Source: a virus
Length of the DNA: 20,485 nucleotides
Strand: one strand, 5' to 3'
Virus record (IMG/VR): IMGVR_UViG_3300047994_000592
Span: 1 to 20,485 of that record
Each line of letters starts with the position of its first letter. The first letter of the stretch is position 1. The notes beneath the pieces are model-generated. The model was not told the DNA's origin. It did not search any database and saw only the letters and a list, made by a program, of their open reading frames with translations. The position numbers and the translations under genes were made by a program. Shown here piece by piece: positions 2,416-16,997 of this stretch.

Positions 2416-3777
2416 ATGAGTGAGGCGGCGGGGTTTTTGGGCTTCGCCCGCCATGTGATGGCTGAATCTTCCAAGGTGCCGGCGCGGCACCATGAATTGC
2501 TGATCGCCCGGCTTGAGGAAGTGGTGACCGGGGGGTGCGAGCGGCTGATGGTGCAGATGCCGCCGGGCTCGGCGAAGTCGACATATGGGTCGATTTTGTT
2601 TCCGGCGTATTTTCTGGGCCGGCACAAAAAGGCGCAGGTGATTGCAACAGCGCATACGGCGTCGCTCGCGGATTATTTTGGCCGGCATGTGCGCGAGACG
2701 CTGGAGGCGCATGGCGGGTTGCTGAGCGTGAAGATTGCGGAGAAGAGCCGGGGGGCTGCGAGGTTTGCAACCGCTGCGGGTGGCGAATATTTTGCCGCCG
2801 GGGTGCGCGGACCGATTACCGGCCGGCGGGCGGATTTGATCCTGATTGATGATCCGATAAAATCCTGGGCGGAGGCGGAGAGCCAGACGTATCGGGATGC
2901 GCTGTATGATTGGTACCGGGCGGAGCTTTCGGCACGGCTGAAGCCGCGCGGGCGGATTGTGCTGATGATGGCGCGCTGGCACGAGGATGATCTGGCGGGC
3001 CGGCTCATGGCGGGCGAGCGGGCGTGGAACTGCCTGACGTTGCCGGAGATTGCCGGCGAGGGGGACGCGCTGGGGCGGGCACCGGGCGAGGTGCTGTGGC
3101 CGGAATGGCAGGATGCGGCAGCGGTTGAGCGCCGGCGGCTGGAAGTGGGGGAACGCACGTTCTCTGCGATGTATCAGCAGAATCCGCGGCCGCCGGAGGC
3201 GGCGTTGTTCAAGGTGGATAACATAAAAGTGCTGGCGGAGGCGCCGGTTGTGTCGCGCACGATACGAGCGTGGGATTTAGCCGCGAGCCTGCCGGCGCAG
3301 GGGCGCGACCCTGATTATACGGTGGGGCTGAAGCTGGGCCATACCGCCGACGGCCGGCTGGTGGTGCTGGATGTAGTGCGGTTTCAGGGCTCGCCGGCGC
3401 AGGTGGAGGCGCGGATAGATGCAACCGCCCGGCTGGATGGCGCGCAGACGGTGGTGGCGCTGCCGCGGGACCCCGGGCAGGCGGGGGCGGCACAGATTGC
3501 CATGCTGAGCCGGATGCTGGCGGGGTTTCAGATTTTGGCGTCGCCGGAGATGGGGGCCAAGGAAATGCGCGCGCGGCCGGCGGCGACGCAGGTGGATGCG
3601 GGGAACCTGGCGATTGTGGCCGCACCTTGGAATGATGCGTTTTTGGCTGAGATAAGGGCTTTTCCGGATTCGCGGAAGGATGACCAGGTGGATGCGCTCT
3701 CGCGCGCTGTGAATACGCTGGCGACGACGCATGGGCACCTGGCACGGCGGGTTAGTGTGCCGCTGCTGGGGAGGTAA
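2416..3777 (+). CDS. terL: Phage terminase large subunit
   Basis: A 453-residue DNA-packaging motor that translocates and cuts phage DNA at the portal. The ATPase domain comes first: Walker A MPPGSAKST at residues 48-56, Walker B LILIDD at 141-146, and a coupling region LMMARWHEDDL near 183-193. The C-terminal RNase H-like nuclease follows, with acidic residues in AWDLAAS (D287) and DDQVDALS (D422, D423, D426). Length and motif order are normal for the family, so the protein looks intact. No clear Shine-Dalgarno site precedes the ATG at 2416. The next gene is the portal, the usual neighbour, separated by a repeat pair. Confidence 0.95.
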   Translation: MSEAAGFLGFARHVMAESSKVPARHHELLIARLEEVVTGGCERLMVQMPPGSAKSTYGSILFPAYFLGRHKKAQVIATAHTASLADYFGRHVRETLEAHGGLLSVKIAEKSRGAARFATAAGGEYFAAGVRGPITGRRADLILIDDPIKSWAEAESQTYRDALYDWYRAELSARLKPRGRIVLMMARWHEDDLAGRLMAGERAWNCLTLPEIAGEGDALGRAPGEVLWPEWQDAAAVERRRLEVGERTFSAMYQQNPRPPEAALFKVDNIKVLAEAPVVSRTIRAWDLAASLPAQGRDPDYTVGLKLGHTADGRLVVLDVVRFQGSPAQVEARIDATARLDGAQTVVALPRDPGQAGAAQIAMLSRMLAGFQILASPEMGAKEMRARPAATQVDAGNLAIVAAPWNDAFLAEIRAFPDSRKDDQVDALSRAVNTLATTHGHLARRVSVPLLGR

Positions 3778-3781
3778 GTAA

Positions 3782-3942
3782 GAGGTCGCTTTTCTGTCGA
3801 AAAGCTCGGCAAAAGACTTTTGTCCCGAAGGCTTGGGTGATGGAAACGGCGTTGCCTTTATGACGGACTGTTAGATTGGTATCTGCATAGAATGGCAAAA
3901 GTTTTTGGGACGCCTTTTCTCAAAAAGGCGCTGCTTTCTTTC
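3782..3942. repeat. REP-like twin repeat, pair B
   Basis: Inverted pair between the terminase and portal genes. The left arm is 3782-3831 and ends in CTTTTGTCCCGAAGG. The right arm is 3895-3942 and starts GCAAAAGTTTTTGGG. Both arms keep the inner T-tract/A-tract hairpin (GCTTTTCTGTCGAAAAGC; GCCTTTTCTCAAAAAGGC), but with substitutions that are often compensated on the other side of the stem. That is evidence for selection on, or recent ancestry of, the hairpin. About 60 bp of unrelated sequence lies between the arms. Confidence 0.75.
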
Positions 3943-5736: not shown

Positions 5737-5746
5737 CCTGGAAACG

Positions 5747-5872
5747 TAAGCGGTCGTTTTTTGAAAAAAGCTCCGCAAAAACTTTTTTGTCCCCGGGGGA
5801 CGGTGAAACATCCCGTGTAAAAGTTACAAAAGTTTTTTGGCTCTTTTTTTCAAAAAAGAACTTCTCTCTTGA
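5747..5872. repeat. REP-like twin repeat, pair C
   Basis: Inverted pair between the scaffold-like and capsid genes. The left arm (5747-5799) keeps GCGGTC, a GTTTTTTGAAAAAAGC hairpin, TCCGC and CTTTTTTGTCC. The right arm (5826-5871) keeps CAAAAGTTTTTTGG and a CTTTTTTTCAAAAAAG hairpin. The arms are only 26 bp apart, the closest of the five pairs. In RNA this would form a hairpin just upstream of the capsid gene's ribosome binding site (AGGAG, 5888-5892), so it may set the level of capsid messenger. Confidence 0.8.
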
Positions 5873-8587: not shown

Positions 8588-9420
8588 TGGCGGACCAGGC
8601 GGATGTGGAGACCGCGCTGGCGGCGATTGTGGCGAATGCGCTGTACCCTGAAGGGACGGCGGCGACGAGTGTGATTGGGAATATCTGCCGGGTGTATCGG
8701 GGCTATCCGACGGCGCCGGCGCTGGATGCGGACCTGGCAGCGGGGGTGGTGCATGTGTCCGTGGCGGCGGGAGGTTCGCCGGCGCGAAACGTGACGCGGT
8801 ATCCCCGGAAATGGATTACGGTGGCGCCGGTGCTGACGGTGTTGCGTGTCGCGGTGGCCGGGGAAACCGCGACGTTCAGCGGGGCTTGCGCGGTGGGGCA
8901 GCTGGCCGGCGTGGTGGTGAAAGATTCGGCCTATGCCTATGCAGTGCAGGGTAATGATAGCCCGGCGACGGTGGCGAGCAATCTGGCGGCGATTTTGCGC
9001 TCGGCCGGGTGGCTGGTGGAATATGCCGGCACGAGCGTGGGGGTGCCGGGGGCGGCGCGGTTTGAGGCGCGGGTGGTGAGCGGGGCGGGGGCGTTGCAGG
9101 AGATCAAGCGCCAGGCCCAGGAGTTTAAGATTTCCATGTGGTGCCCGGATCCGGCAAGCCGGGATGCGGTGGCGCCCGTTGTGGACCAGGCACTGGCGGG
9201 CGTGAATTTTGTTCCGCTGGCGGATGGGTCTTATGCGCGGGTGATTTTTACCAATAGCGAGGCGCAGGATGGGGCGGCGGATGCGGCGCTGTACCGGCGG
9301 GATCTGACGTATTCGGTTGAGTATCCGACGACGGTTTCGCAGGTGATTCCGGCGATGTTGTTTGGGGCTGCGAGTTTGTCGGCCAATGCGGGCTTTGTTG
9401 AGGATTTGCCAGTGGCGTAA
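8587..9420 (+). CDS. Tail terminator-like protein with an inserted Ig-like domain
   Basis: A 277-residue protein. The outer parts (residues 1-75 and about 165-270) look like one domain: a start pattern VETALAAIVANALY, then GYPTAPALDADLAAG, and a later QEFKISMWCPDPASRDAVAPVVDQAL followed by YSVEYPTT. This is the layout of tail terminator or tail completion proteins. Between them lies a segment of about 90 residues (VLRVAVAGETATFSG, YAVQGNDSPATVASNLAAIL) resembling the small Ig-like or carbohydrate-binding repeats often inserted in phage structural proteins. It is the last gene before a repeat pair and the sheath cluster, as expected for a tail terminator. The exact function is inferred. Confidence 0.5.
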   Translation: MADQADVETALAAIVANALYPEGTAATSVIGNICRVYRGYPTAPALDADLAAGVVHVSVAAGGSPARNVTRYPRKWITVAPVLTVLRVAVAGETATFSGACAVGQLAGVVVKDSAYAYAVQGNDSPATVASNLAAILRSAGWLVEYAGTSVGVPGAARFEARVVSGAGALQEIKRQAQEFKISMWCPDPASRDAVAPVVDQALAGVNFVPLADGSYARVIFTNSEAQDGAADAALYRRDLTYSVEYPTTVSQVIPAMLFGAASLSANAGFVEDLPVA

Positions 9421-9421
9421 G

Positions 9422-9608
9422 TAAGCGGTCGCTTTTTTGTAAAAAAGCTCCGCAAAAAACTTTTGTCCTGAGGGCATGGTTGTTGGTATGGCTAAGCAAT
9501 TAAGGCGTGGATGGCCGCTTTTGCGGCCATGACGGGTTAATTGGGCTAGGGCCCAGATTCGCAGAAGTTTTTTGCGGAGCTTTTTTTCAAAAAAGCGACC
9601 GCTTTCTT
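9422..9608. repeat. REP-like twin repeat, pair D
   Basis: One of the two best-conserved pairs. The left arm (9422-9475) reads GCGGTC, then GCTTTTTTGTAAAAAAGC, T, CCGC, AAAAAACTTTTGTCC. The right arm (9561-9608) is nearly its reverse complement. Within each arm GCGG and CCGC extend the inner stem, giving a long hairpin. The two arms could also pair with each other across about 85 bp. It fills the gap between the head/neck genes and the tail sheath cluster. Confidence 0.9.
9512..9531. other. Perfect GC-rich hairpin inside repeat pair D
   Basis: ATGGCCGC-TTTT-GCGGCCAT is a perfect 8-bp stem with a 4-base loop, located between the two arms of pair D. A second small inverted repeat, TGGGC / GCCCA, lies just downstream near 9542-9555. 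There is no T-run after it, so it is not a classical intrinsic terminator by itself. Together with the flanking arms it makes the gap before the sheath genes a dense block of secondary structure. Confidence 0.6.
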
Positions 9609-9765: not shown

Positions 9766-11310
9766 ATGCCGATTGTACAACAGGGCGCGATCAACACGAC
9801 CGCGCTGATCGTGCCTGATCTTTATGTGCAGATTGTGCCGCCGCAGTCTTTGCTGTTGAACGGGGTGCCGACGGATGTTCTGGGCGTGGTGGGCACGGCG
9901 AGCTGGGGGCCGGTGGGGGAGCCCACGGTTATTGGCAGCATGAGCGATTACGCCGCGGCTTTTGGCGCCGTGATGCCGCGCAAGCATGATATGGGCACGC
10001 AGGTTGCGACCGCGGTGCAGCAGGGGGCGGGGAATTTCCGTTGCGTTCGGGTTACGGATGGGACGGATACGGCGGCCTCGATCACGGTGCTCGGCGGCGT
10101 GACGTTTACCGCGCTGTATACAGGCAGTTTCGGGACGGAGCTGACCTTGACATTTTCCGCGGGTTCGGCGGCGAGCACGTGGCGGATGTCTGTCGCGCTG
10201 CCGGGGCAGAGCCCGGAGGTGTATGATAATATTTCGGGCAGCGGGGCGACGTTCTGGGCTAATCTTGCCAATGCGGTGAATAATGGGAATGGCGTGCTGC
10301 GGGGGCCTTCGCAATTGATTGTTGCGACGGCGCTGGGGGGTGTGGCGACGCCGGTGGCGGGGGCGTTCTCGTTCAGCTCGGGCACGCCGGGGAGCGATGG
10401 CGCCGTGAGCATTACGGCGGCGACGCTGGTTGGGGTTGATACGCTGCCGCGGCTGGGAATGTATGCGCTGCGCGGGCAGGGATGCGCGATTGCGCTACTG
10501 GCGGATGCGGATGATTCGACGCAATGGGGTGTGCAGGCCGAGTTTGGGCTTGCCGAGAGCGTTTATATGATTTTGACCGGGCCGGCCGGCGATAATATTG
10601 CCAATGCGGTGACGATGAAGGCCGAGGCCGGGATTGATAGTTACGCCGCGAAGATGATGTTTGGGGACTGGGTGTATTGGTCTGACCAGGCGAATGCGCT
10701 CATACGGCTGGTTTCCCCGCAGGGGTTTGTGGCGGGGCGGCTGGCGAATTTGTCGCCGGAGCAGTCGTCTTTAAATAAACCGCTTTATGGCGTGATTGGG
10801 ACGCAGAAATCCGGCCAGCCGGGGGTGGGGACGGCGAGCACGTATGCGACCGCTGATCTTGCGGCGCTGCTGGGGGCGGGGATTGATGTGATTGCCAATC
10901 CGCAGCCGGGCGGGGCGTATTGGGGGGTGCGGGGCGGGCATAACTCCTCGTCTAACGCGGCCACCAATGGGGATAACTATACGCGGCTGACGAATTATAT
11001 TGCGAGCACGCTGGCAAGCGGGATGGGGGCGTATGTTGGGCAGCTGGTGAATACCACGCTGTTCCAGAATATCCGTGCCACGCTGCTGGCGTTTTTGAAT
11101 GGGTTGCTGAGCCAGGGGTTGCTCGGGAGCACGAATGGCGCGCTGCCGTTTGCAGTCGTGTGCGATGCGAGCAACAACCCGCCCAGCCGGACGAGGCTGG
11201 GCTATGTGCAGGCGGATGTTCAGGTGCAGTACCAGGCGATTAATGAGAAGTTCATTGTGAATGTGCAGGGCGGGCAGACGGTGCAGGTGAGTGTGCAGAC
11301 GATACCGTAA
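9766..11310 (+). CDS. Contractile tail sheath protein
   Basis: A 514-residue sheath subunit, which polymerises around the tail tube and contracts to drive it through the host envelope. The N-terminus TTALIVPDLYVQIVPP followed by GVVGTASWGPVGEPTVIGS is characteristic of sheath proteins, as is SDYAAAFG. A middle region with VRVTDGTDTAASITV and Thr/Gly-rich strands is the variable outer domain. The C-terminal domain, RLGYVQADVQVQYQAINEKFIVNVQGGQTVQV, provides the strands that lock subunits together. Length is normal. It shows that the tail is of the contractile (myovirus) type. Confidence 0.93.
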   Translation: MPIVQQGAINTTALIVPDLYVQIVPPQSLLLNGVPTDVLGVVGTASWGPVGEPTVIGSMSDYAAAFGAVMPRKHDMGTQVATAVQQGAGNFRCVRVTDGTDTAASITVLGGVTFTALYTGSFGTELTLTFSAGSAASTWRMSVALPGQSPEVYDNISGSGATFWANLANAVNNGNGVLRGPSQLIVATALGGVATPVAGAFSFSSGTPGSDGAVSITAATLVGVDTLPRLGMYALRGQGCAIALLADADDSTQWGVQAEFGLAESVYMILTGPAGDNIANAVTMKAEAGIDSYAAKMMFGDWVYWSDQANALIRLVSPQGFVAGRLANLSPEQSSLNKPLYGVIGTQKSGQPGVGTASTYATADLAALLGAGIDVIANPQPGGAYWGVRGGHNSSSNAATNGDNYTRLTNYIASTLASGMGAYVGQLVNTTLFQNIRATLLAFLNGLLSQGLLGSTNGALPFAVVCDASNNPPSRTRLGYVQADVQVQYQAINEKFIVNVQGGQTVQVSVQTIP

Positions 11311-11334: not shown

Positions 11335-11763
11335 ATGCCGTATAATACGTTTTCCGTTGGCAGCGACTGCCAGATTGTGGTGATGGGGCCGTTTGGCCGG
11401 GTGGATCTGGCGCATGTGACGGGGTTTGAGGCGCGCCAGATGACGATGGCGGTGCGGGTGGACCGGCTGGATGGGGTGCAGCTGGGGGCGGAGTTGCCGA
11501 AGGGGTGGACGGGGAGTTTTTCGCTGGACCGCGGGTCCTCGGCGGCGGATGATTTTATTGCGCAGATTGAGGCGGCGTATCTGGCGGGGCAGTCGATTGG
11601 GGCTGGAACGTTGTATCAGTATGTGAATGAGCCGGATGGGTCGACCTCGACGTATCAGTTTAATGGGGCGGTGTTTAAGCTGACCTCGGCGGGGCAGTAT
11701 AAGGGGGATGCGGCGGTGACGCAGCGGCTGGATTTTTATGCTTCTGGGCGGGTACGGGTGTGA
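11335..11763 (+). CDS. Tail tube protein
   Basis: A 142-residue protein directly after the sheath, in the FI/FII-type order of contractile phages. It is beta-rich, with a start (YNTFSVGSDCQIVVMGPFGRV), a mid-section (GWTGSFSLDRGSSAADDFIAQIEAAYL) and a terminal strand (RLDFYASGRVRV) typical of tube subunits, which stack as hexameric rings to form the DNA conduit. TAGGAGCAGGG precedes the ATG. The stop overlaps the next start as TGATG (11761-11765). Confidence 0.85.
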   Translation: MPYNTFSVGSDCQIVVMGPFGRVDLAHVTGFEARQMTMAVRVDRLDGVQLGAELPKGWTGSFSLDRGSSAADDFIAQIEAAYLAGQSIGAGTLYQYVNEPDGSTSTYQFNGAVFKLTSAGQYKGDAAVTQRLDFYASGRVRV

Positions 11764-12065
11764 TGACGGAAATTGTGACGGATAAAGCCGGGCGGAAGAT
11801 TCAGTTGCGGCACATGGGGGTGTTGGAGCAGTTGCGGCTCTACAAAGCTTTGGGGCCGTCGCTCTCCGTAAATGATCCATATTTTGATCTGGCTTTCATT
11901 GCCGCTTCTGTTTCGATGATTGATGATGTGCCGGTGCCGTTCCCGACCAGCGAGGCGAATGTGGAGGCCGTCCTGGAGCGCTTGGGAACAGGCGGTGTTG
12001 TGGCGGTTGATGGGTTTTTGCCTTCGGCATCGACGGCAGAGATGGTAACTGAAGCGGGAAACTGA
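11763..12065 (+). CDS. Tail assembly chaperone, unshifted product (gpE/gpG-like)
   Basis: A 100-residue acidic, mostly helical protein between the tail tube gene and the place of the tape measure gene. This is the standard position for the chaperone that coats the tape measure protein during tail assembly. It starts TEIVTDKAGRKIQLRHMGVLEQLRLYKAL and ends EAGN followed by TGA (12063-12065). The last three sense codons plus one base form a G GGA AAC slippery heptamer immediately before the stop, so a fraction of ribosomes should continue in the -1 frame. A GTG at 11760 could add one residue. Identification rests on position plus the frameshift architecture. Confidence 0.75.
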   Translation: MTEIVTDKAGRKIQLRHMGVLEQLRLYKALGPSLSVNDPYFDLAFIAASVSMIDDVPVPFPTSEANVEAVLERLGTGGVVAVDGFLPSASTAEMVTEAGN

Positions 12066-12232
12066 GTCGGCATCCCGCATTGATGGACTGTTTGTATCTC
12101 GTCCATTGCGGGGTGCCTTATGATATTGCCTTTGGTCTCGGGCGCGCAGAACGTTTGGCGTATTTAGTTATTTTCGGCCGGTTTCAGGGAATGATATTTG
12201 ACTGGAACACGGGAAAGTGGCAAAAAACATAA
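11763..12232 (+). CDS. Tail assembly chaperone, -1 frameshift product (gpE-E'/gpGT-like)
   Basis: If the ribosome slips one base back on G GGA AAC (12056-12062), it avoids the TGA and reads 56 more codons from 12062 (CTG) to a TAA at 12230-12232, for a product of 156 residues. The extension contains MDCLYLVHCGVPYDIAFGL, GRAERLAYLVIFGRFQG and ends FDWNTGKWQKT. Small helical peptides with a terminal F-D-W motif are typical of the second half of tail chaperones in alphaproteobacterial phages. In lambda (G/GT) and P2 (E/E') the longer form recruits the tape measure. No start with a ribosome binding site exists for the second frame alone; an ATG at 12083 lies inside the stem. Confidence 0.75.
12056..12117 (+). 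promoter_or_regulatory. Programmed -1 ribosomal frameshift signal with stimulatory stem-loop
   Basis: The slippery heptamer G GGA AAC is at 12056-12062 in the correct phase, followed directly by the zero-frame stop. After a 6-base spacer comes a strong stem-loop. GGCATCCCGCA (12069-12079) pairs with TGCGGGGTGCC (12107-12117), and ATGGAC (12083-12088) pairs with GTCCAT (12101-12106). There is a 3-base bulge and a 12-base loop, 17 pairs in all including one G-U. Heptamer, spacer length and stem agree with the general model of -1 frameshift sites. Confidence 0.85.
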
Positions 12233-12855
12233 AAGTTATTGCATCTATCTACCCATGGTTGTAGCTTTCGGAGGGTATTGGAAAGATCCTTTAGGGGAAC
12301 TTTAAGATGACGCGGATTGTGCGACTACCGAACCGTGCAAGGCTGGTTTATCTGGTACCGATCTGTTTGTTGGCGCTGCTTTGCGGAAGCTCTAGCGTCC
12401 GCGGGGCGACCGATGATTTGGCGTTTCAAGACTGCCGGGACCTGTTAAATCAGGACTCTGACGTTTTGCCGGGTCAGGTTTGGTACAAGCCGCCTGTAGA
12501 CAAGGCCACTCAAAGCGCCATTGCACCCGAATTGAAGTATGGTGGCGCTATTGTGCGCTGGACTTACCTCGTCAATGAGGATGGGTCGAAAACCATCGTG
12601 GTTTTGAATCGGGATGCAACGATTCCTCAACCAGAGGATGATCCTGATGTCTTTGATTTATTTATGGAAAAAGATGGTGTTTCGGTCGAGATCGATGGTG
12701 TTTCTGCTAATGCTTTTGCATTTTCAGCCTACGAGACCGACCACGTCAATGGTCTGCTATTTTGTACCCATGCGAAAATATCTCCTGAATGGGATTGGGA
12801 CGGGCATGATTGGGGCTTTTGAAGCAATACTTTCATTGTGAGGATGCCAAAGATG
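12217..12855 (+). repeat. Tandem duplication, copy 1 (639 bp)
   Basis: This block is repeated directly after itself at 12856-13494. It starts inside the end of the frameshifted chaperone frame (GTGGCAAAAAACATAA) and ends just after the start codon of the downstream hydrolase-like gene (GAGGATGCCAAAGATG). The first 278 bp differ from copy 2 at five positions and the last 69 bp are identical. The 292 bp between (12495-12786) are strongly diverged. Copy 1 therefore leaves a vestigial ribosome binding site and ATG at its right end that lead only into a short dead frame. Confidence 0.95.
12307..12822 (+). CDS. Secreted protein of unknown function, paralog 1
   Basis: A 171-residue protein. Residues 1-34 are a Sec signal peptide with a basic start and hydrophobic core (YLVPICLLALLCG), with likely cleavage near SVRGA/TDD. 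C26 sits in a poor lipobox, so a lipoprotein is less likely. The mature part is about 137 residues, acidic and Trp-rich at the end (SPEWDWDGHDWGF). Its two cysteines (C43, C153) could form a disulfide in the periplasm. A good ribosome binding site (AGGGGAA) precedes the ATG, behind a 90-bp leader shared with paralog 2. I do not recognise the family. Its place beside a peptidoglycan-hydrolase-like gene suggests a periplasmic inhibitor or immunity protein, but that is conjecture. Confidence 0.8.
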   Translation: MTRIVRLPNRARLVYLVPICLLALLCGSSSVRGATDDLAFQDCRDLLNQDSDVLPGQVWYKPPVDKATQSAIAPELKYGGAIVRWTYLVNEDGSKTIVVLNRDATIPQPEDDPDVFDLFMEKDGVSVEIDGVSANAFAFSAYETDHVNGLLFCTHAKISPEWDWDGHDWGF

Positions 12856-13494
12856 GTGGCAAAAAACATAAAATTTATTGTATCTATCCACCCATGGTTG
12901 TAGCTTTCGGAGGGTATTGGAAAGATCCTTTAGGGGAACTTTAAGATGACGCGGATTGTCCGACTACCGAACCGTGCAAGGCTGATTTATCTGGTACCGA
13001 TCTGTTTGTTGGCGCTGCTTTGCGGAAGCTCTAGCGTCCGCGGGGCGACCGATGATTTGGCGTTTCAAGACTGCCGGGACCTGTTAAATCAGGACTCTGA
13101 CGTTTTGCCGGGTCAGGTTTGGTACAAGCCGCCCGTTGATAGGGCAACCCAGAAGGCCATCGCCCCCCAAATGAGGTATGAAGGCTCTATCATAAGGTGG
13201 ACCTATCACATTAATGAGGATGGGGCGAAGACGATTGTCGTTTTGACCAGGGATGCAAGCGTGCCACAACCGGAAGATGACCCCGATGGCTTTGACATAT
13301 TCCTGGAACGAGGTGATGTCTCGGTGGAGCAGGATGAGGTTTCCGCAAACGCCTTCGCATTTTCGGCTTATGAGACTGACCATGTAAACGGGCTTTTATT
13401 CTGTACCCATGCGGTGATATCGCCCGAATGGGATTGGGACGGGCATGATTGGGGCTTTTGAAGCAATACTTTCATTGTGAGGATGCCAAAGATG
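12856..13494 (+). repeat. Tandem duplication, copy 2 (639 bp)
   Basis: Second unit of the duplication. Its first bases repeat the last four codons and stop of the chaperone extension (W-Q-K-T-stop) although that gene does not lead into it. This shows that copy 2's left end is the scar of the duplication event. Its right end runs straight into the intact hydrolase-like gene. The shared leader differs from copy 1 at only three positions in 90 bp. Confidence 0.95.
12946..13461 (+). CDS. Secreted protein of unknown function, paralog 2
   Basis: A 171-residue paralog of the preceding gene, without insertions or deletions. Of the 24 residue differences I count between the two, one is at position 14, twenty-two lie in residues 66-131 and one is at 157. 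The signal peptide, N-terminal 65 residues and C-terminal tail are otherwise the same, including both mature cysteines and the SPEWDWDGHDWGF end. Many third-codon positions also differ within the core, so the divergence is old or imported. The shared ends look recently homogenised. It lies 30 bp before the hydrolase-like gene and would be co-transcribed with it. Function unknown. Confidence 0.8.
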   Translation: MTRIVRLPNRARLIYLVPICLLALLCGSSSVRGATDDLAFQDCRDLLNQDSDVLPGQVWYKPPVDRATQKAIAPQMRYEGSIIRWTYHINEDGAKTIVVLTRDASVPQPEDDPDGFDIFLERGDVSVEQDEVSANAFAFSAYETDHVNGLLFCTHAVISPEWDWDGHDWGF

Positions 13495-14853
13495 TCGGAT
13501 TCCGACAATTCAACGTCGAATTTCGCCGCCTTTGCCGCCGGCATGCGTCAGTCCGAGTCAACGAATAACTATAGTAGTCTCGGACCGGACCCGAAAACAA
13601 AAAAGCTGAAAGACCAGCATTTTGGCGCTTATCAACTTGGATATCAAGCACTTGCTGATGCGGGATTCATTGAGGAAAAGGGAGATTTGACGAAGCCTGC
13701 ATGGACTTCGTATGCGAATTCATTGGGTGTGAATTCGGTTTCCAGCTTCATTAGCAATAAGAGTGCACAGGATATCGCTTTCGTCAATTTTACAAAAGCG
13801 AACCTAGATTATCTAAAAGGATACCAGTCATATATTGGAAAGACGATTCGGACTGGTACGGTAGGAAATGTCGATGTCACTGAATCGGGATTGCTAGCTG
13901 CGGCTCACCTGGTCGGGCACCATGCTGTTGAACAATTCCTAAGCTCCAACGGTAAAGTAGACGGTCACGATGACAACCTTGTGCACGTATCTGAGTATAT
14001 GGCTCAGTTCACTGGCTATGGATTCACGTATGATGCAAAGACTGGAAAGTTTATCGATGCACCGGAGCCGACGGCGATGCTCCAGACGATTGAGGCGGAG
14101 CGTGACGCGGCTGTTGCATATCGGGCCGCGCATAAAAGTAGGCTGGTAAATAAGCCAGGAAAGAAGCTTTCTACGCGGTCGCGCGGAACTCATCATTCAT
14201 ATGCACCGGTCCATGGGCGAGCCGGGGCTCTGAAACCGAAGTCTCACGAACGGGCGTCAGTGGACGGTGATGGGAGCGGTATCGCTCGGCCCAACCGTCG
14301 AGGCTTGGGGCTTCAAACTGAAAACCGAGCTGAAATGGTTTCTTTGGCTAATGGCACTTATCTCGCGCGAACTTCAGAAACGCATAACTTTTTAGGATAT
14401 AGGATTGGCGCCCGCGCGGGCAGCTCCTCTGGATCGATGGTTCCAAATGACGGATATGGAGAATCGGAGGGACGTTTGGAGCCCCGTTTAGCGGGAGGTA
14501 CACGTATCGTGAGCGTTGCCGCTCGGGGTATTGGAAACGGGCAAAGCTTTGCGCCGACTTCCTTTAATGGGATGGAGTTTACGGAATCCGCCATCGGGGC
14601 GCCTTCGCAACAAAAATGTGTTATGCTGACGCCGTCTTTCGAGGGTTCGCCCCATAGGGTGGGCGGATCGTCCGCTTTTCAGACTGGATTCAGCATATTC
14701 GAGGCGGCGCGGGATAAGGAGAGTAACGAGACACGTCTTTCTCGCGTTCTGGATAATTATTTTCTCAGGCAGGCGCGGTTGCCGCCTGTTGGTGGTTCAG
14801 GGTTTGATCCGCGGGTTACGCCGGCTTGGCCGGGGGTGAAAATTACGGGTTGA
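13492..14853 (+). CDS. Peptidoglycan hydrolase-like protein with a long unassigned C-terminus
   Basis: A 453-residue cytosolic-start protein without a signal peptide. Residues about 10-180 resemble lysozyme/transglycosylase-like domains of phage and secretion-associated proteins. A possible catalytic glutamate is in QSESTNNY (E22), followed by FGAYQLGYQALADAGF (44-59) and GLLAAAHLVGHHAV (133-146), then EYMAQFTGYGF. The remaining 270 residues are low in predicted structure, Gly/Ser/Arg-rich and unrecognised, possibly a delivery or toxin part. I start at the ATG at 13492 because GAGG (13479-13482) is correctly spaced; an ATG at 13483 is possible. It occupies the tape measure position but lacks the coiled-coil and membrane segments of one. 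AT-richer than its neighbours, it looks acquired. Confidence 0.55.
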   Translation: MSDSDNSTSNFAAFAAGMRQSESTNNYSSLGPDPKTKKLKDQHFGAYQLGYQALADAGFIEEKGDLTKPAWTSYANSLGVNSVSSFISNKSAQDIAFVNFTKANLDYLKGYQSYIGKTIRTGTVGNVDVTESGLLAAAHLVGHHAVEQFLSSNGKVDGHDDNLVHVSEYMAQFTGYGFTYDAKTGKFIDAPEPTAMLQTIEAERDAAVAYRAAHKSRLVNKPGKKLSTRSRGTHHSYAPVHGRAGALKPKSHERASVDGDGSGIARPNRRGLGLQTENRAEMVSLANGTYLARTSETHNFLGYRIGARAGSSSGSMVPNDGYGESEGRLEPRLAGGTRIVSVAARGIGNGQSFAPTSFNGMEFTESAIGAPSQQKCVMLTPSFEGSPHRVGGSSAFQTGFSIFEAARDKESNETRLSRVLDNYFLRQARLPPVGGSGFDPRVTPAWPGVKITG

Positions 14854-15893: not shown

Positions 15894-16860
15894 ACAGCCG
15901 CAATTGCGGCTGAGCATCGCCGGGGTGGCGGTGCCGGGCGCGGTTTCGTTGGAAATTGAATCCGTGGCATATTTTTCGGCGGATCGGTTCCGGATTGGTT
16001 TTGCGATGGGGGCCGCGGCGTTTACCACGGCGGCGTATTTTGCCGGGCTGGGGTTGCAGACAATCAAGATCGAGGCGGCGCTGAGCGGGTTTGGGTATGT
16101 GACACTGCTGACCGGGCAGATTGATAATGTCCGGATTGATCTGGCGAGGAATATCGCGGAGCTGTGCGGGCGGGATTTGTCGGCGCGGTTGATTGATAGC
16201 GAAATATCGGAGACGTTTGCGAATCAGAGCTCGAGCCAGATTGCGAGCACGATCGCGGCGCGGCATCAGCTGACGGCGAATGTGACGGCGACGCAGACAA
16301 TGGTGGGGCAGTATTATGAGCTGGACCATGCGCGCAATGCGCTGGGGGCGCATTCGCGGGCGACGACGGAATGGAATTTGCTGACGGAACTTGCGGCGCT
16401 TGAGGATTTTGTGGTGTCCGTGACGGGAACGACGTTGAATTTTGGGCCGGTTGCGCCGGGGCGGCCTGTGTTTGTGACGCCGCGGAGTTTTACGGCGCTC
16501 AGTTTGGACGTGGCGACGACGATTCCAATGTCGGCGCGGGTAAAATCCTGGAATACGCGGCAGAAGGCGGTGGTTTCTGAGCGTGCCGGGAGTGGGGCGG
16601 GGACGACGCTGATTCGGCCGAATTTGACGGTGGCGCAGGCGCGGAGCCTGGCCACGAATCATCTGGCGACGCTGCGGCAGCATGGGACGATGCTGGTGGG
16701 GACGATGCCGGCGGATTTGACGCTGATGCCTGGGATGCAACTGGTGCTGAGCGGCACGGAGTCCGGGCTGGATCAGACCTATGATGTGAGTGCTGTGTCT
16801 CGGGTGTTGGAGGCGCGGACGGGGTTTTTGCAGACGGTGCTGGCGTTTGGGACGAGCTAA
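15862..16860 (+). CDS. Baseplate hub protein, P2 gpD-like
   Basis: A 332-residue protein of the late-control D / gp27-like hub family, which forms the ring between the tail tube and the spike. It shows the N-terminal strand series (PQLRLSIAGVAVPGAVSLEIES, FGYVTLLTGQIDNVRIDLARNIAELCGRDLSARLIDSE) and later a WNLLTELAALEDFVVSVTGTTLNFG segment. The C-terminal GMQLVLSGTESGLDQTYDVSAVSRVLE matches the hub fold's final barrel. The start is uncertain: ATG at 15862 or GTG at 15877 (VALPVEQ); both overlap the LysM gene. A repeat pair follows. Confidence 0.8.
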   Translation: MRPRGVALPVEQPQLRLSIAGVAVPGAVSLEIESVAYFSADRFRIGFAMGAAAFTTAAYFAGLGLQTIKIEAALSGFGYVTLLTGQIDNVRIDLARNIAELCGRDLSARLIDSEISETFANQSSSQIASTIAARHQLTANVTATQTMVGQYYELDHARNALGAHSRATTEWNLLTELAALEDFVVSVTGTTLNFGPVAPGRPVFVTPRSFTALSLDVATTIPMSARVKSWNTRQKAVVSERAGSGAGTTLIRPNLTVAQARSLATNHLATLRQHGTMLVGTMPADLTLMPGMQLVLSGTESGLDQTYDVSAVSRVLEARTGFLQTVLAFGTS

Positions 16861-16861
16861 G

Positions 16862-16997
16862 GAAGTGGTCGCTTTTTTGTAAAAAAGCTCCGCAAAAAAC
16901 TTTTGTCCTGGGGTTACGGGGCTTGACGGCACTGGATTAGCCTAGATTCGCAAAAGTTTTTTGCGGAGCTTTTTTACAAAAAAGCGACCGCTTGCTT
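16862..16997. repeat. REP-like twin repeat, pair E
   Basis: A second near-consensus pair, starting right after the hub gene stop. The left arm (16862-16913) and right arm (16950-16997) are almost exact reverse complements over about 45 bases, with the inner GCTTTTTTGTAAAAAAGC hairpin and the CCGC / GCGG extension. They are separated by only about 36 bp, so transcripts could form one very long hairpin. It fills most of the 195-bp gap between the hub and the spike gene. Confidence 0.9.

Follow-up and report, generated by a model that had tools for sequence, protein, structure and literature searches.

The stretch of viral DNA analysed here, the whole of the 20,485-nucleotide IMG/VR record IMGVR_UViG_3300047994_000592 (hereafter the window), raises the question of whether a single gene in its tail region is read into two proteins by a programmed -1 ribosomal frameshift and, if so, in what kind of element such a device has been kept.

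The slippery site and its reading frames

The gene in question lies on the plus strand (11763..12065) and specifies a predicted tail assembly chaperone of 100 amino acids from the ATG at 11763, or of 101 amino acids from an alternative GTG at 11760. Its zero frame ends GCG GGA AAC TGA, where the slippery heptamer G GGA AAC (12056..12062, plus strand) stands in the X XXY YYZ phase and is abutted by the zero-frame stop TGA (12063..12065, plus strand). In the -1 frame, no stop intervenes between 12053 and a TAA at 12230-12232, and the extension encoded there (12062..12232, plus strand) consists of 56 codons (12062-12229) and that TAA, with the sequence LSRHPALMD...FDWNTGKWQKT; joined to the chaperone, it would give a fusion protein of 156 amino acids. 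A putative stimulatory stem-loop (12069..12117, plus strand) begins 6 nt past the heptamer and is laid out as 11 pairs, a 3-nt bulge, 6 pairs and a 12-nt loop. The initial annotation had described this locus as a textbook frameshift site, and the in-phase heptamer with the stop right after it, the 6-base spacer, the stem and the 56-codon extension were all recovered in place.

Taken alone, the heptamer is weak evidence, since 11 of the 985 stop triplets in the window have one by chance. A mechanical scan of 689 kb of related sequence on both strands, requiring a heptamer, a stop within 30 nt, at least 80 codons before and at least 40 after, returned 45 candidates. Of the 17 with the most stable folds downstream, 15 are the chaperone site of the window and its counterparts.

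All 38 relatives scanned have a zero-frame protein that matches PHROG 20383, a family without assigned function, and in one of them it also matches PHROG 508, labelled as a tail assembly chaperone. Searches with the zero-frame protein found no family for it in Pfam or NCBIfam, and a PDB sequence search gave no match. Its AlphaFold (AF2) model is of high confidence (pLDDT of 87); the top-ranked PDB structure by fold is the tail assembly chaperone of HK97 (2OB9), a weak match with an E-value of 0.38, and the fold matches among viral proteins in BFVD are enriched in annotated chaperones, including Mu FS-gp41, these also being weak (E-values of 0.03 and above). It is the position of the gene, directly after those of the sheath and tube and before the tape-measure slot, that settles its predicted identity as a tail assembly chaperone.

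Conservation of the heptamer, the extension and the stem-loop

All 24 relatives fetched from viral and genome collections carry the heptamer, as GGGAAAC in 22 and as AAAAAAC in two, and in 23 of them a stop lies directly on its 3' side. The exception, unique among all relatives compared, is L004 (L004:3294-3321), where the adjacent stop is lost and the zero frame continues for six codons into the stem, with both heptamer and stem kept. Further loci came from the family of Acidocella aromatica (L023), the Acetobacteraceae. The element of A. aromatica itself has GGGAAAC as its heptamer and LSRHPGLMD in its extension. The site is readable in 26 of 28 short family loci, the other two being short contig pieces, and reads GGGAAAC in 18, AAAAAAC in six, GGGAAAT in one and AAAAAAA in one; the same arrangement recurs in all 20 of the larger family loci. 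The signal is kept in each of the 40 distinct bacterial genomes with a readable site, drawn from the fetched relatives, which contribute five, and from both sets of family loci, and this identical layout rules out a sequencing artefact. Towards the 3' end of the zero-frame gene, an in-phase heptamer of the XXXYYYZ type is confirmed, then, in the window and in the readable relatives. Relatives lacking both heptamer and stem while keeping two genes, which the initial annotation had named as evidence against a frameshift, were sought and none was found.

None of the relatives compared, including the Komagataeibacter phage phiKX1 (LC644975), has a G as the last base of the heptamer. This avoidance of G could reflect a dedicated tRNA-Lys(CUU), an explanation drawn from the one genome of A. 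aromatica, which has tRNA-Lys(CUU) beside tRNA-Lys(UUU).

For the extension itself, pN/pS is approximately 0.2-0.4 when read in the -1 frame, whereas the other two frames give values close to 1 or higher; judged from this comparison of sequences, selection acts on the protein that the -1 frame encodes, and a conserved protein-coding extension in that frame is confirmed. It might nonetheless be translated without any frameshift, as a separate small gene with its own start or by re-initiation at the stop. An in-frame ATG is indeed present in the window (at 12083 in the -1 frame), but column 8 holds I, V, A, L, T or R in most relatives and offers no start codon, and conservation of the extension starts upstream of that ATG. 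The record of phiKX1 has the two halves as two genes, yet a separate gene would leave the conserved heptamer and its adjacent stop unexplained. An independent start for the extension was rejected, as the start codon is not conserved, and translation as a gene of its own is very improbable.

With the RNA folded from 12063, the stem has an energy of -29.2 kcal/mol (z = -4.8), and none of 200 shuffles folds as well. Because 16 of 1000 synonymous recodings of the window alone do fold as well, the case rests on conservation and not on energy; proof of the stem by energy alone was set aside as insufficient, the recodings of the L022, L020 and L021 stems often folding equally well. Conservation is seen in the codons of the arms, where alone the synonymous third positions are frozen: Val18 is GTG in all 44 sequences, His4 is CAC in 41 of the 44, and Gly17 is GGG in 40, with other Val, Gly and Ala columns varying freely, at 1.4-1.9 bits. 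The remaining four sequences, those of the L009 group, have GGC at Gly17 and a matching change of CCC to GCC in the 5' arm, a C-G swap that constitutes one apparent compensatory event. Across 20 sequences, 90.5% of the cells are paired in the lower helix (helix 1) and 70.8% in the upper, and the covariation score (0.182) exceeds that of shuffled alignments (0.114; 0 of 500 shuffles reach it) and of all slid versions. Together, the frozen arm codons, the pair counts and the covariation argue that the RNA element is real and that conservation within it covers roughly the lower 9 pairs (12069-12077 with 12109-12117). The 17-pair stem of the initial annotation is thus present in the window with its 3-nt bulge, but across relatives conservation is confined to this lower core; the conservation of the heptamer and the covariation in the stem that the annotation had proposed to look for among homologs both emerged, the latter above the level of shuffles. 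No Rfam family matches the RNA element.

The near invariance of this stem core also bears on whether the longer product could arise from slippage of RNA polymerase on a run of A or G, and not from slippage of the ribosome. Runs of A6C or A7 in some relatives would suit a slipping polymerase, but the run in the window is only G3A3C, an identical stem accompanies both types of heptamer, and the stop sits as it does in ribosomal sites, all of which make this origin exceedingly improbable.

A programmed -1 ribosomal frameshift in the tail assembly chaperone gene, as first proposed for the window, is strongly supported by the comparison of heptamer, stop, stem and extension and by both selection tests, and is highly probable. 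Most ribosomes would stop at the TGA at 12063 and release the 100-amino-acid chaperone, and a minority, paused by the stem 6 nt downstream, would exchange GGA-AAC for GGG-AAA in a tandem slip and translate 56 further codons to yield the 156-amino-acid fusion. On the model of lambda G/GT, the short form would coat the tape-measure protein and the extension would recruit tube subunits, the ratio between the two forms being important for tail assembly. We infer the occurrence of slippage, its rate, the partner proteins and the making of both products from these comparisons. The rate of frameshifting may be low, because in E. coli an A_AAC in the A site shifts far less readily than does A_AAG (reviewed in PMC5009743).

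Tail genes and the surrounding element

The chaperone gene follows two genes of a contractile tail, one for the tail sheath (9766..11310, plus strand; PHROG 23 tail sheath, E-value 1.7e-47) and one for the tail tube protein (11335..11763, plus strand; PHROG 12993), the latter assigned by its tube position and its homology to phiKX1. The tube protein is the proposed partner of the extension. The tape-measure slot is occupied by a gene (13477..14853, plus strand) for a short tape-measure-like protein of 458 amino acids with the conserved C-terminus RQARLPPxGxxGFDPRxTPAWPG. The slot proteins of relatives vary and are short, at 250-512 amino acids; they are often Pro/Ala-rich, their C-terminus being conserved, and a profile of this C-terminus matches the end of the 742-amino-acid gene of phiKX1 (E-value 3.7e-5). 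From its position and its C-terminal similarity to the phiKX1 gene, the slot protein is probably a shortened tape measure. The idea that the Acidocella elements have no tape measure was rejected when the C-terminal profile located the gene behind that of the lysozyme, to where it has moved in two Acidocella-type elements (L038/L039 joined, 27726-28562; L042/L043 joined, 27982-28824).

Between the chaperone gene and the slot, the window has a tandem duplication (12217-12855 and 12856-13461) with a 639-bp period that holds two copies of a gene for a 171-amino-acid, possibly lipoprotein-like protein. The repeat begins within the last codons of the extension, and relatives have other small genes or none at this site.

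Of 120 Acetobacteraceae genomes, 55 have a homologue of the sheath, mostly as a single copy. The order of genes, terminase-portal-scaffold-capsid-head genes-sheath-tube-chaperone-slot-gp43-LysM-D-V-W-J-I, is identical in 25 genomes (the 20 larger family loci and G001-G005), the moved slot gene aside, some of the 20 family loci being truncated or too divergent at their terminase or portal end; the terminase, portal and capsid genes are all open in the window. At the left end of the element, a candidate regulator of the helix-turn-helix type (XRE-like, by eye) occupies 1-348 on the minus strand and adjoins two small genes in several relatives. Upstream of the terminase lies an extra open reading frame of 285 amino acids (1448-2305), possibly for an outer-membrane protein as judged by eye, with relatives of similar size in two other elements (family F0). 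An interspersed repeat with a core near AAGCGGTCGCTTTTTTGTAAAAAAGCTCCGCAAAAAACTTTTGTCC recurs in intergenic gaps at approximately 1229-1349, 3775-3830, 5741-5858, 9418-9608 and 16858-16997.

The relation of this element to its hosts was assessed in the 25 genomes with RecA as the single marker of host lineage, and on that marker the element appears to be inherited with the host. Among close relatives, the proteins of the element and RecA are roughly equally diverged (for example, 90% against 92%, and 82% against 86%), and the two sets of distances are correlated (Mantel r of 0.54, reached in 0 of 2000 permutations). The tree of the structural proteins has 11 of 22 splits in common with that of RecA, where the random maximum is 3. 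These figures, like the single gene order of all 25 genomes, speak against an ordinary, occasionally mobile prophage whose likeness across genomes would come from repeated infection by related phages, although three strongly supported conflicts between the two trees are in its favour. The flanks bear on both sides, in that the adjoining chromosomal genes are common within the Acidocella/G001 group and largely different beyond it. Close relatives do occur as virus contigs, and the sequenced phage phiKX1 has tail genes related to those of the element, but when the gene maps of the element were inspected by eye and by shared-family labels, neither an integrase nor a replication gene could be recognised. 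An ordinary prophage is a possible but rather unlikely explanation, and the word, which was used in the initial annotation, is probably the wrong one.

Since the gene order is fixed, the structural tree follows RecA and no integrase was recognised, the comparisons instead suggest a long-resident, possibly domesticated contractile-tail element, apparently inherited vertically in the Acetobacteraceae. It may possibly form a contractile-tail particle resembling a gene transfer agent. In its fullest form, this reading is offered tentatively: the frameshift would be kept in a domesticated, vertically inherited, contractile-tailed and DNA-packaging particle of the Acetobacteraceae (similar to a gene transfer agent, of myovirus type and with a shortened tape measure), with the rule against G in the heptamer set by the lysine tRNAs of the host. 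This context of the element is of more interest than the frameshift itself.

Relation to known systems

The mechanism is the textbook one of lambda G/GT, P2 E/E' and Mu gp41, and the GGGAAAC heptamer is already known in phages. P2 (E/E') and Mu (gp41/FS-gp41) likewise have contractile tails and, between the tube and tape-measure genes, a chaperone gene with a -1 frameshift. Mu FS-gp41 is among the weak fold matches of the chaperone in the window; neither phage has a Pfam or NCBIfam sequence family in common with that chaperone, and the P2 heptamer differs from the heptamer found here. The lambda heptamer is GGGAAAG, and the site in the window departs from it in having C and not G as the last base, a zero-frame stop that abuts the heptamer, a strong stem and contractile-tail neighbours. 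Lambda G/GT is alike in that ribosomes slip into the -1 frame at G GGA AAZ late in a tail chaperone gene that lies shortly before the tape measure, giving a short and an extended form (PMC5009743).

What is added here is the extension of a known mechanism to an unannotated group, along with a family-wide comparative set in which synonymous sites of the stem are frozen and the heptamer avoids AAG. The phages KL1 and Colossus and the virus HCTV-1 have long non-contractile tails. Frameshifting of a chaperone at GGGAAAC has already been proposed for all three, namely in gp18/gp19 of Burkholderia phage KL1, in Caulobacter phage Colossus and in haloarchaeal virus HCTV-1 (PMC3483164, PMC3556154, PMC5009743). 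KL1 resembles the window in having GGGAAAC right before a TGA and a predicted stem-loop (PMC3483164). These three are single predictions, whereas in the group of the window the stem is conserved family-wide.

The phage phiKX1 has AAAAAAC-TGA, the same stem arms (GGCACCCCG...CGGGGTGCC) and a sheath and tube related to those of the window, but differs in the 742-amino-acid gene at its tape-measure position. Its frameshift is unannotated, the halves being recorded as two hypothetical proteins, which bears out the expectation that an extension of this kind would be missed by gene calling.

Phage-like contigs from peat moss (Sphagnum) match regions of Acetobacteraceae, are described as having no excision or replication modules and are called uncertain in function (PMC12142844, 2025). 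The available portion of that account, unlike the present analysis, has no mention of a frameshift and no test of co-inheritance. With their P2/Mu-like V-W-J baseplate and their match to Acetobacteraceae chromosomes, both as in the element described here, the contigs are probably of the same kind as the element in the window. Were this element domesticated, the Acetobacteraceae would possess a contractile-tailed equivalent of gene transfer agents, a kind that was not encountered in the portion available of a classification paper (PMC9662315); retention of the frameshift would then be an argument that the element still assembles tails and that selection acts to keep them.
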